Source: Clostridiales bacterium
GTDB taxonomy: Bacteria; Bacillota; Clostridia; Christensenellales; Aristaeellaceae
Assembly (NCBI GenBank): GCA_029012285.1
Contig: JAQXLU010000063.1
Span: forward strand, 1 to 49,543
DNA: 49,543 nucleotides
Direction of reading: 5' to 3'
Shown here in pieces: positions 1 through 6,977 of the stretch. The notes beneath the pieces are model-generated. The model did no database searches and was not told where the DNA came from. It was given only the letters and a program-made list of their open reading frames with translations. Each line of letters begins with the position of its first letter. Position 1 is the first letter of the stretch. The position numbers and the translations under genes were made by a program.

Positions 1-2286
1 CTGGGGTATGAGACCGTTATGGTCAACTGCAATCCGGAAACGGTTTCCACCGACTACGACACCTCGGATAAGCTGTATTTTGAGCCGCTGACCTTTGAGG
101 ACGTGATGAGCATCTACCGGGAGGAGAAGCCGGTGGGGATCATCGCCCAGTTTGGCGGGCAGACGCCGTTGAATCTGGCACGGGCGCTCCAGGCAGCAGG
201 GGCGCGGATTTTGGGCACTTCCCCGGATTCCATTGATCTGGCGGAGGATCGGGATCATTTCCGCGCCATGATGGACAAGCTGGGCATCCCCATGCCCGAG
301 TCCGGCATGGCGGTCACGGTCGAAGACGCCGTGTCCATCGCCAACCGCATCGGCTACCCCGTGATGGTGCGCCCCTCCTACGTGCTGGGCGGCCAGAACA
401 TGATCATTGCCTACCAGCCCGCCGATATCGTGGAGTACATGCGGATCATCCTGGCCCAGGGCATCGAGAACCCCATCCTGATCGACCAGTACCTCAAGGG
501 CATCGAGGCTGAGGCGGACGCCATCTGCGACGGCGAGGACGTGCTGATCCCAGGCATTATGGAGCACATCGAGTCCTCCGGTGTCCACTCGGGCGACTCC
601 ATTGCGGTCTATCCCGCGTGGAACCTCACCGGCGCGATGTACCAGCGCCTGGTGGAGGTCACCCGTCAAATCGCCCTTGAATTGGGCACGCTGGGCTTGA
701 TCAACATCCAGTACATCGTCTACCATAACGAGGTGTACGTCATCGAAGCGAACCCCCGCGCCAGCCGCACCGTGCCCTACATCAGCAAGGTGACGGGCGT
801 GCCCATGGTCGACTTGGCCGTGCGCGCGATGCTGGGCGAGAAGATTCGTGACATGGGCTACGGCACGGGCTTGTACCGTCAGAGTCCCTATTTCGCGGTC
901 AAGGTGCCCTGCTTCTCCTTCGAGAAGCTGGCGGACGTGGATACCCACCTCGGCCCGGAGATGAAGTCCACCGGCGAGGTGCTGGGCCTGGGCACCAATC
1001 TGCAGGAGGCCATCTACAAGGGACTGGTCGCCGCGGGCTACAAGATGCGCCAGGGCGGCGGCGTGCTGATTTCCGTCCGGGATAAGGACAAGCCGGAGGC
1101 TGTGGGCGTGGCCCGCAAGTTCCAGGCCCTTGGCTTCAACATCTTCGCCACCACCGGCACCGCCCGCATGCTCCTGGAGCATGGCGTGTATTCCGCCGTG
1201 GTCAAGCATGAGGCCATGGAGCAGATGCTCACCATGGGCCAGGTGCAGTATGTGATTTCCACCTCCGTCAAGGGGCGCGATCCCCTGCGTGAATCCGTCA
1301 AGCTGCGCCGCAAGGCCGTGGAGCGCGGCATTCCGCTCTTCACCTCTCTGGATACCGCCAATGCCCTTGCCAACGCGCTGACCAGCCGCTATTCCCAGGG
1401 CAATGTGGAGCTGGTGGACATCAACCACATGCGCAAGGAGCCCAAAAAGCTCTCCTTCGTCAAAATGCGCGGCACGGGCAACGATTACCTCTATTTCGAC
1501 TGCTTCGAGCAGCAGCTGGAAAGCCCCGAATCTTTGGCGGTACGCTTGAGCAACCGCCGCAGCGGCGTGGGCGCGGACGGCATTGTGCTCATATTGCCCT
1601 CCAAGCGGGCGGACGCAAGGATGCGCATGTTCAACGCCGATGGCTCCGAGGGCGCGGTGGCTGGCAATGCACTGCGCTGCGTGTGTAAGTACCTGTACGA
1701 GTCCGGCCGGGTGCGCAAGGAGGAAATGCGCATCGAAACCGGCAGCGGCGTGAAGGCTGCCAAGCTGTTCATCCGCGAGGATCAGGTGTTCTCCGTGCTG
1801 GTGGATATGGGCCGTCCGGCCTTTGCCCCATCGGAGGTGCCCGTCAAGCTGGAGGGCGAGAAGGTGCTGGGCCGCCAGGTGTTCCTGGCCGGGCAGATGC
1901 GCGAGATCTCCTGCGTGTCCATGGGCAACCCCCATGTGGTGCTCTTTGTGGATGATGTGAACGCGGTGAACCTGGAGCAGGTTGGCCCGGCGATCGAGCA
2001 GGACGCGCTCTTCCCCGCCCGGGTGAACGTGAGCTTTGCGCAGATCGTCGACGGCAGCAGCATTGTGATGCGTGTGTGGGAGCGCGGCATCGGGGAAACC
2101 CAGGCCTGCGGCACCGGCGCCTGCGCAGTGGCTGTCGCTGCGGTGGAAAACGGAAGGTGCAAGCGCGACGCGGACATCGACGTGGCCCTGCCCGGCGGCA
2201 CCTTGGTGGTGCGCTACCAGGCGGACGGTCAGGTCTGGATGACTGGCGACGCGGTGATGGACTTCGAGGGTTCGATCCGCATCTAA
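1..2286 (+). CDS. carB: Carbamoyl-phosphate synthase large subunit (C-terminal part) fused to a diaminopimelate epimerase-like domain
   Basis: The reading frame is open from base 1, so the 5' end lies outside the window. About the first 475 codons are the second half of CarB: the second ATP-grasp unit (NCNPETVSTDYD, EANPRASRT) that makes carbamoyl phosphate for pyrimidine and arginine synthesis, then the allosteric MGS-like domain ending near ELVDINHM. With no stop codon and a linker of about ten residues, the frame runs into a DapF domain from about 1453 (FVKMRGTGNDY, NRRSGVGADG, FNADGSEG, MGNPHVV, ERGIGETQACGTGACA). DapF converts LL- to meso-diaminopimelate for lysine and cell wall. An ATG at 1429 sits at the junction but has no convincing ribosome-binding site, so I read one fused protein. 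The first catalytic cysteine of DapF is alanine here (codon 1660-1662), while the second is present (2107). A hairpin follows the stop. Confidence 0.93.
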   Translation: MGYETVMVNCNPETVSTDYDTSDKLYFEPLTFEDVMSIYREEKPVGIIAQFGGQTPLNLARALQAAGARILGTSPDSIDLAEDRDHFRAMMDKLGIPMPESGMAVTVEDAVSIANRIGYPVMVRPSYVLGGQNMIIAYQPADIVEYMRIILAQGIENPILIDQYLKGIEAEADAICDGEDVLIPGIMEHIESSGVHSGDSIAVYPAWNLTGAMYQRLVEVTRQIALELGTLGLINIQYIVYHNEVYVIEANPRASRTVPYISKVTGVPMVDLAVRAMLGEKIRDMGYGTGLYRQSPYFAVKVPCFSFEKLADVDTHLGPEMKSTGEVLGLGTNLQEAIYKGLVAAGYKMRQGGGVLISVRDKDKPEAVGVARKFQALGFNIFATTGTARMLLEHGVYSAVVKHEAMEQMLTMGQVQYVISTSVKGRDPLRESVKLRRKAVERGIPLFTSLDTANALANALTSRYSQGNVELVDINHMRKEPKKLSFVKMRGTGNDYLYFDCFEQQLESPESLAVRLSNRRSGVGADGIVLILPSKRADARMRMFNADGSEGAVAGNALRCVCKYLYESGRVRKEEMRIETGSGVKAAKLFIREDQVFSVLVDMGRPAFAPSEVPVKLEGEKVLGRQVFLAGQMREISCVSMGNPHVVLFVDDVNAVNLEQVGPAIEQDALFPARVNVSFAQIVDGSSIVMRVWERGIGETQACGTGACAVAVAAVENGRCKRDADIDVALPGGTLVVRYQADGQVWMTGDAVMDFEGSIRI

Positions 2287-3051: not shown

Positions 3052-4092
3052 TTACTTGGTGTTCTTGATTTCCATCCACATGGCCTCGTAAACGGGGCGG
3101 AAGCTGTCGTCAATGTCGTGGAAGAACTCGCACTTCTCCAGCACCTCAGCGGCGGGATTCTGCACGTGGTTGTCTGTGTATTCCTCGCCCAGCAGGTCGA
3201 TCGCGCCCTGGTTGGGGGTGGAGTAGCAGATGTATTCCACGTTCATCTGCGCAATGTCGGGGCGGCAGAGGAAGTCGATGAACTTCTCGGCGTTTTCCTT
3301 GTTCTTGGCGGTCTTGGGGATGACCACGCCGTCCACCCACACGTTGGAGCCCTCCTCGGGCACGAAGTAGTCCAGATCCTCGTTCAGGTCAATGGCGTAC
3401 ATCGCGTCGCCGGACCACATCAGGGCCAGGGCAGCCTCACCGGCCACCATCTTGTCCTTGGTTTCGTCCACCTGGTAGGCCTTCACCACGCCGCTCTTCT
3501 TCTGGTCGATCAGCATCTGCTTGGCGGCCATCAGCGCGGGCACCTCCTGGGTGTTCATGCTGTAGCCCATGTACTTGAGGGTGACGCCCATGCTGTCGCG
3601 GATGGAGTCCAGCATGAACACCTGGTTCTGGTACTCGGTGTTCCACAGCGTCGCCCAGGACTTGACGGGGTCGGGGATCATGGTGGTGTTGTAGAGCACG
3701 CCCACGGTACCCCACATGTAGGGCACGGAGTACTTCTCCTCGGGATCGTAGTCGGGGTTGCGCAGGAAGTCAATGGTCTGGGCGGCGTTGGGCACGTTGT
3801 CGTAGTTGATTTCCGCCAGCATGTCCTTCTTGATCATGCGCTCGATGATGTAATCGGAGGGGAAGCACAGGTCGAAGGCGCCGGGATTGGCTTCAACCTG
3901 CACGATCATGTCCTCGTTGGTGGTGAAGCACATGTAGTTGACCTTGATGCCGGTTTCCTGCTCAAACAGGGTAATGACGGCGGGGTCGATGTAGTCTTCC
4001 CAGTTGTAGACGTTGACCACGCCCTCGGCGGAGGCAGGCACGGCAGCGAGCGCCAGCGCCAGGAGCAGGAACAGGGAAAGCAGCTTTTTCAT
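3052..4092 (-). CDS. potD: Spermidine/putrescine ABC transporter substrate-binding protein
   Basis: The 346-residue protein captures polyamines outside the membrane and delivers them to PotBC. It opens with a typical export signal (MKKLLSLFLLLALALA, likely cut after ASA). The mature part starts with VNVYNWEDYIDP, the hallmark of PotD/PotF, followed by FEQETGIKVNY and CFPSDYIIERM. No lipobox cysteine follows the signal core, although such proteins in Gram-positives are often lipoproteins, so how it is kept at the cell surface is unclear. GAGGAGG precedes the start. It is the last gene of the operon, 35 bases after potC. Confidence 0.95.
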   Translation of the reverse strand: MKKLLSLFLLLALALAAVPASAEGVVNVYNWEDYIDPAVITLFEQETGIKVNYMCFTTNEDMIVQVEANPGAFDLCFPSDYIIERMIKKDMLAEINYDNVPNAAQTIDFLRNPDYDPEEKYSVPYMWGTVGVLYNTTMIPDPVKSWATLWNTEYQNQVFMLDSIRDSMGVTLKYMGYSMNTQEVPALMAAKQMLIDQKKSGVVKAYQVDETKDKMVAGEAALALMWSGDAMYAIDLNEDLDYFVPEEGSNVWVDGVVIPKTAKNKENAEKFIDFLCRPDIAQMNVEYICYSTPNQGAIDLLGEEYTDNHVQNPAAEVLEKCEFFHDIDDSFRPVYEAMWMEIKNTK

Positions 4093-4127
4093 GTTGGATG
4101 AACCTCCTCAAAAGAATTGGGGATATG

Positions 4128-4895
4128 TCAGTCGTTGTTGGCGGTGCGGCGGTTGACGATGAGCAGCAGCACCAGCAGCGACACGAACATCAGCGCGGAC
4201 AGGGCATTGAGCGACGGGTCGATGCCCTTGCGGGCGGAGGAATAGATGAGCGTGGACAGGTTTTGCACCAGGGGCGAGGTGGTGAAGTAGCTGATGGTGA
4301 AATCGTCCAGCGAGAGGGTGAAGGCCAGCATCGCGCCGGTGATGATACCCTGCTTGCACTGGGGGATGAGGACGTGCAGCAGCGCGTACATCGGCGTTGC
4401 GCCCAGGTCAAGGGCCGCCTCGTAGGTGTGGCGGTTCATCTGCTTGAGCTTGGGCAGCACCGACAATATCACATAGGGGGTATCAAAGGTGATGTGGGCC
4501 AGCAGCATCGTCATGTAGCCGCGCTCCACCTTGGTGAAGATGAACAGCAGCATCAGCGAAATGCCGGTCACAATATCGGGCATGGTGTTGGGCAGATTGG
4601 TGAGGGTCATCATCAGCGCCTGGGGCCGCTTCTTCATCGAATGGATACCGATGGCGGCCAGCGTGCCCAGGATGGTGGCGACGATCATCGCCACCACCGC
4701 GATGGACAGTGTGACATACAGCGCGTTGAGGATGCGCTCATCCCGGAAGAGCTCGGCATACCAGCGCAGGGAGAAGCCTTCCCACTTGGCACGGGACTTG
4801 CCTGCGTTGAAGCTCTGCACAATCAGCACCAGGATGGGCACATACAGGAACACGAGCACCAAGCCCAGATAGCAGCGCTTGAGCCACTTGATCAT
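4128..4895 (-). CDS. potC: Spermidine/putrescine ABC transporter permease PotC
   Basis: This 255-residue inner-membrane permease has about six hydrophobic segments and the binding-protein-dependent transport signature (EAALDLGATPMYALLHV, the EAA loop that docks on the ATPase). The N-terminal MIKWLKRCYLGLVLVFLYVP and YVPILVLIVQSFNAGKS are typical of PotC. It pairs with PotB to form the polyamine channel. Its ATG overlaps the potB stop by four bases, and AAGGAGGTGG precedes it, so translation is probably coupled. Confidence 0.95.
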   Translation of the reverse strand: MIKWLKRCYLGLVLVFLYVPILVLIVQSFNAGKSRAKWEGFSLRWYAELFRDERILNALYVTLSIAVVAMIVATILGTLAAIGIHSMKKRPQALMMTLTNLPNTMPDIVTGISLMLLFIFTKVERGYMTMLLAHITFDTPYVILSVLPKLKQMNRHTYEAALDLGATPMYALLHVLIPQCKQGIITGAMLAFTLSLDDFTISYFTTSPLVQNLSTLIYSSARKGIDPSLNALSALMFVSLLVLLLIVNRRTANND

Positions 4896-5884
4896 GCAAT
4901 GCCACCTCCTTCACCGTTGGGATCGACCTTGCGCAGGATGGACAAACTCAGGAGGATCAGCAGCATCATGATCAGGGACAGGGCCGAGCCGACGTTCCAG
5001 TTGCCCTCGGTGAGGAACTTCGACTCAATCAGGTCACCGAACATCATCGTGTTGCCGCCGCCCAGCACGCGGGGGATGAAGAACGTGGTCACCGATGGCA
5101 TGAACACCATCGTGATGCCGCTCACCACGCCGGGGAGGGAGAGGGGCAGCGTGACCTTATACAGGGTCTGAATGCTGTTGCAGCCCAGGTCAGCCGCGGC
5201 CTCGGACAGGCGGTAGTCCATCTTGGCCAGCACCGTGTAGATGGGGAAAACCATGAAGGGCAGGAAGTTGTACACCATGCCCAGCAGCACGGCGCTGGAG
5301 TTGTACATCAGCTGTACACCGTCAAAGCCCAGCCATTTCAGGAACGTGTTGATGAGGCCCGAATCCTCCAGCAGGCTCATCCAGGCGATGGTGCGCAGCA
5401 GGAAGTTCATCCACATGGGGATGATGAAGAGCACCACCAGGGTGGGGCCCAGCTTCATGTGGCGATCCGCCATGAACAGCGCCGCAGGGTAGCCCAGCAT
5501 CAGGCAGATCACCGTGCAGCGGAAGGCCATCCACAGCGAGTAAACGAGGGTATCCACGTTCACCGTGCCACGGGTGATGTAAGCCGCGCCGCTCTCGCCC
5601 ATCACGTCCAGAATGACCTTGTTGGATTCATAGTTGGAATCCCAGAAATTCTTGAAGTTATCCAGGGTGAAGGCGCCGCTGGCGTCGGTGAAGGAGTAGT
5701 AGCTGATCAGCAGCACCGGCAGGATGGTGAAGATGATCATCCAAAGCGTATAGGGCGAAGCGAACAGGGAGCGGTGCATGCCGCGGTGACGCCTGATTGT
5801 CAGCGCAATCATGGTCACAAACACGGCAAGGCCCGCGCCCATGGCCGCCCAGGCCCACCAGGGGAGCGACATATCCGTGAGCAT
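4892..5884 (-). CDS. potB: Spermidine/putrescine ABC transporter permease PotB
   Basis: The second permease subunit, 330 residues. The family core starts around residue 38 (LFASPYTLWMIIFTILPVLL) and holds the EAA loop SEAAADLGCNSIQTLYKV. It is longer than usual because of an additional hydrophobic helix at the N-terminus (WWAWAAMGAGLAVFVTMIAL). A loop around residues 80-110 (NYESNKVILDVMGESG) is also longer than in E. coli PotB. AGGAGG stands at the right distance from the chosen start, one base after the potA stop, so the extra helix is probably real. Confidence 0.94.
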   Translation of the reverse strand: MLTDMSLPWWAWAAMGAGLAVFVTMIALTIRRHRGMHRSLFASPYTLWMIIFTILPVLLISYYSFTDASGAFTLDNFKNFWDSNYESNKVILDVMGESGAAYITRGTVNVDTLVYSLWMAFRCTVICLMLGYPAALFMADRHMKLGPTLVVLFIIPMWMNFLLRTIAWMSLLEDSGLINTFLKWLGFDGVQLMYNSSAVLLGMVYNFLPFMVFPIYTVLAKMDYRLSEAAADLGCNSIQTLYKVTLPLSLPGVVSGITMVFMPSVTTFFIPRVLGGGNTMMFGDLIESKFLTEGNWNVGSALSLIMMLLILLSLSILRKVDPNGEGGGIA

Positions 5885-5885
5885 G

Positions 5886-6977
<1,092 letters not shown>

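Follow-up and report, generated by a model that had tools for sequence, protein, structure and literature searches.

The diaminopimelate (DAP) epimerase DapF dimerises, and its catalysis uses two cysteines. An E. coli DapF in which C73 and C217 are both changed to Ala is reported to have no epimerase activity, and yet to bind and stimulate RppH (PMC4227774); a disarmed DapF can therefore regulate a partner. Crystal structures of the Anabaena enzyme, as set out in PMC12039745, have the distal amino acid of DAP held by Asn66, Glu215, Arg216, Asn164 and Asn197. Among carbamoyl-phosphate synthases (CPSases), human CPS1 (PDB 5dou, 5dot) is switched by N-acetyl-glutamate at its C-terminal domain, in the account of PMC4655335.

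Our literature searches found no paper on a fusion of CarB with DapF. Such a fusion stands at the start of the window, by which we mean the whole 49,543-nucleotide stretch of Clostridiales DNA that was analysed, and in it the DapF domain has lost its first catalytic cysteine and kept the contacts to the distal end of DAP. What might such a domain do on a carbamoyl-phosphate synthase?

Results

The fused frame in the window

The first-pass annotation had read CarB and DapF in one reading frame, a claim borne out by the open frame, by profiles of both families and by recurrence in relatives. The frame (1-2286, plus strand) is open over 761 codons, with a stop at its end. The window opens mid-gene, so that only the C-terminal half of CarB is present, the remainder being cut by the contig start. 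By NCBIfam profiles, residues 2-463 belong to the large subunit of carbamoyl-phosphate synthase and are followed by DapF (Table 1), the DapF domain scoring 281 bits with TIGR00652 against a curated cut-off of 114.65. The CarB profile (NF003671, TIGR01369) reaches 583.4 bits against a cut-off of 599, the contig beginning within the gene; a full-length relative (L055) has a complete CarB, at 1465.9 bits by the same cut-off. Pfam profiles find CPSase_L_D1, CPSase_L_D2, MGS and, in two stretches, DAP_epimerase.

Table 1. Features of the fused CarB-DapF frame (positions are those of the window)
Feature	Positions	Strand	Basis or remark
Contig head, CarB of different type, probable assembly chimera	1..370	+	break near conserved RPSYVLGGQNM stretch
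CPSase_L_D2 ATP-grasp, second half of CarB, residues 83-283	247..849	+	Pfam PF02786, 120.8 bits
MGS-like allosteric domain of CarB, residues 367-448	1099..1344	+	Pfam PF02142, 54.1 bits
CarB C-terminal tail and linker T452-F486, core ELVDINxMR, contains ATG 1429 (residue 477)	1354..1458	+	constant length, column counts, AlphaFold2
DapF domain, residues 485-759	1453..2277	+	TIGR00652; structure alignment to 9mro
Ala554 (GCT) at first catalytic cysteine position (Cys73, CGN motif)	1660..1662	+	alignments to solved and 46 unfused DapFs
Asn545 (Asn64 of H. influenzae DapF), distal DAP contact, kept	1633..1635	+	conservation; contact from PMC12039745 (portion used), numbering by alignment
Asn643 (Asn157), distal DAP contact, kept	1927..1929	+	conservation; PMC12039745 (portion used)
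Asn676 (Asn190), distal DAP contact, kept	2026..2028	+	conservation; PMC12039745 (portion used)
Glu694-Arg695 (Glu208-Arg209), distal DAP contacts, kept	2080..2085	+	conservation; PMC12039745 (portion used)
Cys703 (TGC), second catalytic cysteine (Cys217, ACGTG), kept	2107..2109	+	alignment

The AlphaFold2 model (pTM 0.83) predicts an ordered linker, with block means of 86-89 over residues 451-480. Its DapF part aligns to the DapF structure 9mro at 1.5 A over 272 residues, and the structures closest to this part are DapFs bound to DAP analogues. The DapF domain had been described as complete, which holds for the fold; what is absent is the first catalytic cysteine (Ala554). Downstream of the fusion, on the opposite strand, lie a gene for a helix-turn-helix regulator (2343-2735) and a polyamine-type ABC transporter set, PotD/C/B/A-like (3052-6977).

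The contig head and the host assembly

Over residues 1-122 the protein shares 81% identity with L276, an unfused CarB from another genus of the family, and only about 59-61% with the fused CarBs of the window's own genus. Identity to the nearest genus members is 96-97.5% over residues 126-245 and 91-93% over the last 428 residues, and from residue 126 onward identity to L276 is 42%. The switch falls at a conserved stretch near codon 123. Because the head matches the L276 type and the rest matches genus members, the contig end up to about base 370 is probably chimeric; it lies far from the junction, and these first bases are unfit for use as part of the fused gene.

The host assembly (2.8 Mb in 169 contigs, 95.25% complete, 6.12% contamination) has, in addition, a stand-alone CarB (contig C103, frame of 1067 aa) and a stand-alone DapF with both cysteines (contig C169). 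A further contig, C32, ends inside an argF-carA-carB run (L250, G000:C32:6000-15717). Its overlap with the window past the break agrees at only 85.6%, so that the assembly may hold two strains, and we do not claim C32 as the absent front of the window gene.

Recurrence of the fusion and nature of the linker

Is the fusion peculiar to this genome? The first-pass annotation had proposed looking for others, and the search was productive. With the junction protein as query the fusion is found in 47 of 100 genomes, namely the window's own and 46 of the 99 relatives. Most of the frames have about 1340-1360 aa, and the full-length product is estimated from its length at roughly 148 kDa. A draw across the phylum (398 genomes) gives it in at least 18 of the 397 besides the window's, a lower bound, as up to 10 candidates per genome were scored. 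Among the matches listed in a scan of named genome contigs, it occurs in many Clostridia MAGs and in three named strains: Ruminococcus sp. FC2018 (L113), Sporobacter termitidis DSM 10068 (L164) and Mobilibacterium timonense (L161). The counts given below leave out L096 and L139 (same genomes as L043 and L075), L155 and L158 (cut), L147 and L151 (cut, and read as unfused), L225 (second copy in its genome, G540) and L176 (the window copy). Among the 128 distinct fused domains seven pairs are at least 97% identical, and all were retained.

Two genomes carry two fused genes each (L132 and L224 in G533; L140 and L225 in G540). At L137 (2-3820) a fusion with both cysteines is followed directly by a second, separate DapF and then by pyrG. 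The fused gene is broken across two frames at L054 (1825-5991) and L076 (5886-10057), by a frameshift or a sequencing error.

From T452 to F486 the length is 35 residues without exception among the 128 fused proteins. Of 385 control segments of the same length in this part of the protein, 62 are equally constant, and none of these starts inside the DapF domain. An unfused CarB (L169) terminates in ...SLVDINTL, and at that place the fused proteins mostly read ...ELVDINxMR. A linker of about ten residues had been proposed; the junction stands, but by this comparison much of the supposed linker is CarB's own C-terminal tail.

Might the DapF domain be made separately, from the ATG at 1429? The window sequence has no stop or frameshift near that point, in agreement with the read-through originally claimed. 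The position is Met in 89 and Leu in 37 of the 128 fused proteins, and 32 of the 128 have no ATG at all between residues 463 and 486. Independent initiation there, judged from these columns, is not supported as a feature of the family, though it may occur in this genome.

The catalytic cysteines

The window has AGN for the CGN motif, with Ala where solved DapFs show the first cysteine. In the 128 distinct fused domains position 73 is Cys in 40, that of Ruminococcus sp. FC2018 among them, and the cysteine is lost in the other 88 (Ala 49, Gly 21, Ser 15, and Pro, Phe and Tyr once each). Both cysteines are present in all 46 of the unfused DapFs compared, which are those fetched with frames over 260 aa and not a random sample. 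Cys217 accompanies Cys73 in 39 of the 40 Cys73-kept domains; where Cys73 is lost, Cys217 is kept in 79 of the 86 domains having a residue there, the other seven having lost both. If both cysteines are taken as the mark of a bifunctional CarB-DapF enzyme, 39 of the 40 Cys73-kept fusions bear it and the window protein does not. A quick tree built from the C-terminal regions of 128 fusions (87 Cys-lost, 41 Cys-kept) requires the cysteine state to change 10 times, with at least 8 changes on supported branches.

Since its Cys73 is Ala, and since the E. coli mutant described in PMC4227774 is inactive, the window protein would be expected to have no epimerase activity, the comparison being with a double and not a single mutant. 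The same two facts leave the earlier suggestion that the epimerase is under CarB allostery unsupported, as far as the window protein is concerned. The other suggestion, a covalent link between the pyrimidine/arginine and the lysine/peptidoglycan pathways, is supported by the fusion itself. For the Cys73-kept fusions (40 of 128) the picture is different: PF01678 counts show no DapF besides the fused one in 29 of 40 Cys-kept genomes, versus 13 of 87 Cys-lost genomes, so that an active bifunctional enzyme is plausible there. Because the window domain passes the curated cut-off without the first catalytic cysteine, the annotation "DapF" could be wrong for most of the fused proteins.

The DAP pocket and selection

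By alignment position, we take the five Anabaena contacts named above to be Asn64, Glu208, Arg209, Asn157 and Asn190 of H. influenzae DapF. The window domain keeps 5 of 5. Weighted frequencies in the 87 Cys-lost domains are 1.00 for Asn64, 0.97 for Glu208, 0.90 for Arg209, 0.96 for Asn157 and 0.89 for Asn190, and in the 41 Cys-kept domains 1.00, 0.92, 0.92, 0.92 and 1.00 in the same order. Elsewhere in the Cys-lost group Asn75 stands at 0.97 and Cys217 at 0.90, and Asn11 (0.83) and Gly220 (0.74) are drifting. Ranked by conservation among the 274 columns of this group, Glu208 is 24th, Asn157 31st and column 73 156th, with Asn64 fixed; in conservation the distal contacts come close to the fixed glycines.

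The DapF part is under purifying selection, looser than that on CarB. Its median dN/dS in the Cys-lost groups is 0.22 (152 pairs), 0.12 (17), 0.05 (3) and 0.08 (1), a fifth such group having no usable pair, and in the two Cys-kept groups it is 0.13 (1 pair) and 0.06 (3 pairs). In the same Cys-lost groups the CarB part gives 0.01-0.07 and MGS 0.03-0.28. In the window genus the DapF part, at 0.22, has about threefold the value of the CarB part and lies below MGS, at 0.28.

Gene neighbourhood and other routes to meso-DAP

Neighbours were named by NCBIfam in reference loci, traced by phmmer and recounted without duplicates, and the counts refer to loci with at least 3 kb on the relevant side. Upstream argF is found at 40 of 72 Cys-lost loci versus 0 of 29 Cys-kept loci, and in the window genus at 14 of 15 fused loci. 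Downstream dapL shows the opposite distribution, at 0 of 71 Cys-lost versus 14 of 37 Cys-kept loci; it lies upstream instead at L210 (Cys-kept) and L079 (Cys-lost). In the relatives carA adjoins the fusion at 27 of 29 loci where the cysteine is kept and at 67 of 72 where it is lost; in the window this side falls beyond the contig start. An ANTAR-domain gene, with a receiver domain just under the cut-off, is seen upstream of carA or purF at 12 Cys-kept loci and at L169 (for example L211, 2044-2619).

Does loss of the cysteine go with another source of meso-DAP? A further DapF (PF01678) or a meso-DAP dehydrogenase, Ddh (PF16654), is present in 83 of 87 Cys-lost versus 24 of 40 Cys-kept genomes (raw Fisher p 1.5e-6); G533 is scored here as having another DapF, though its further copy is the second fusion. 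The Cys-lost genomes in which no other route was found are G004 and G020 (87% and 88% complete), G553 and G557 (M. timonense). In M. timonense (L161) the only DapF found is the Cys-lost fusion, with Tyr at 73, and no Ddh was seen. Conversely, Cys73 is kept in eleven genomes despite a further PF01678 copy, G533 with its second fusion being one of them. With relatedness removed, the association of Cys loss with another route is not significant (8 supported pairs, 2.0-2.3 concordant and 0-0.5 discordant, median p 0.5-0.6); the direction is that of the raw counts, and the informative pairs are too few for power. Nor is that of Cys loss with arg context significant (0.9 vs 0.0 of 8 pairs). We take the pattern as a strong description and not as a proof of cause. 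Ddh alone might have been the predictor of Cys loss, as it occurs in 9 of 13 genomes whose sole DapF is a Cys-lost fusion. We reject this, because Ddh is also present where the sole DapF is a Cys-kept fusion (13 of 29 genomes); it is found too in 6 of 18 checked genomes with a further DapF.

Origin and losses

A quick tree was built from 57 fused CarBs, picked by hand from the 128, together with 23 unfused ones. The fused CarBs group together in it with support 90, with two unfused CarBs inside the group (L273 and L265). Just outside it sits the CarB of an unfused cluster, carA-carB-dapF-pyrG-dapL (L169, 3423-11454), which likely represents the pre-fusion state. The DapF-only tree does not make the fused domains one clean clade (4 changes, weak support). 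A single origin, resting on the quick CarB tree, would be the simplest account. The two CarBs of the fused clade that have no DapF domain (2 of 59; L265 2165-5404 and L273 2665-5940) would by the simplest history be two losses in this sample, so that the domain would be dispensable somewhere. The L265 gene lies beside arg genes and ends ...HLVDINH at the linker.

Discussion

What course of events could lead from an epimerase to the protein seen in the window? We envisage that read-through past the end of CarB joined carB and dapF within a carA-carB-dapF cluster, in the simplest case on a single occasion, and synteny and the trees suggest that the ancestral product was bifunctional, a CPSase with a working epimerase. 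Where another source of meso-DAP existed or arrived, as a separate DapF or Ddh, the fused domain would repeatedly have lost the base Cys73. By analogy with the mutants, it should then have stopped converting LL-DAP to meso-DAP, and the pocket for the distal amino-acid end of DAP would have been retained under continuing purifying selection. The present role would most likely be that of a non-epimerising DAP-binding domain, tethered behind the allosteric MGS domain through an ordered linker. Such a domain, we infer, still has DAP or a similar amino acid as its ligand and passes a signal on to the CPSase, and it would tune carbamoyl-phosphate synthesis for arginine to the level of that ligand, for which the switching of CPS1 by a ligand of its C-terminal domain serves as a model. 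To the whole of this explanation, an active bifunctional ancestor followed in the window by a DAP-binding module without epimerase activity on an arginine-linked carbamoyl-phosphate synthase, we give even chances. A bolder and more tentative version, which we hold possible and would not bet on, is that a cell-wall enzyme became an allosteric DAP sensor in carbamoyl-phosphate synthase, so that in many lineages of gut Clostridia the supply of peptidoglycan and lysine precursors sets arginine or pyrimidine flux, the sensor having outlived the activity.

One might think instead that the domain is architecture only, setting the oligomeric state or the stability of the CPSase with no role for a ligand. 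The family conserves the fold and the length of the linker but lets Cys73 vary, and the inactive E. coli DapF still partners RppH (PMC4227774). Oligomerisation alone, however, does not require that the distal DAP contacts be conserved nearly like the fixed glycines, and we consider this reading unlikely, if a serious one.

Somewhat less likely still, in our view, is that the domain is a vestigial passenger, a fused epimerase decaying slowly and without function after a separate DapF or Ddh took over. Cys73 has indeed been lost repeatedly, mostly where another route exists, the dN/dS of the DapF part exceeds that of the CarB part, and two lineages have no domain at all. Against this, dN/dS is far below 1 and overlaps the values of the Cys-kept groups (0.06 and 0.13, from few pairs), the pocket residues are constant across deep divergence, and among fused loci with room upstream the frame is broken in two only at L054 and L076. 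Taken jointly, the architectural and the vestigial readings weigh nearly as much as the sensor explanation.

Could the remaining cysteine serve a new chemistry, acting on DAP or some other amino acid by, for example, elimination or proton exchange? Retention of Cys217 in most Cys73-lost domains would fit, as would the presence of 3-hydroxyproline dehydratases, of the same fold, among the structure matches. The residue at position 73, on the other hand, may be A, G, S, P, F or Y, which fits loss better than a specific new role, and seven members have lost Cys217 as well; we regard the idea as improbable. It is very improbable that the window protein is itself an active bifunctional CPSase-epimerase, as the first-pass annotation proposed: the fusion and most pocket residues are intact and the Cys-kept relatives are probably such enzymes, but the first catalytic position is Ala and another contig of the same assembly encodes a separate two-cysteine DapF. 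That an assembly artefact joined two genes can be practically dismissed, and a single chimeric junction is rejected: the contig head does appear chimeric, but the junction recurs, with invariant linker length, in the relatives and in three named isolates.

The fusion makes control of carbamoyl-phosphate synthesis by DAP a testable question; if such control exists, the level of a cell-wall precursor would be wired directly into the nitrogen and nucleotide metabolism of gut bacteria. The fused proteins and their neighbours would in addition provide a natural series from enzyme to pseudoenzyme, running from the unfused cluster through two-cysteine fusions and repeated loss of the base with the pocket kept to two lineages without the domain.

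How does the fusion compare with the known systems? With DapF (TIGR00652; PDB 9mro, 3ejx, 1gqz) it shares the fold, the distal-pocket residues and the second catalytic cysteine; unlike DapF, the window domain has Ala for the first catalytic cysteine and stands behind CarB, in fusions that often lie behind argF and carA. The likeness to CarB (NF003671, TIGR01369; PDB 1jdb) lies in the complete CarB of the full-length relative and in the adjoining carA of most relatives with room upstream, and the difference in the about 275 DapF residues that follow the MGS domain of the fused form. The E. coli pair of DapF and RppH (PMC4227774; PDB 6d13) is alike in that a DapF without both cysteines still stimulates a partner enzyme; there, however, DapF is a separate protein and the partner an RNA pyrophosphohydrolase, whereas the window DapF is covalently fused to a CPSase. 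CPS1 has its effector site in its own C-terminal domain, whereas the sensor of the fusion would be an additional domain derived from DapF.
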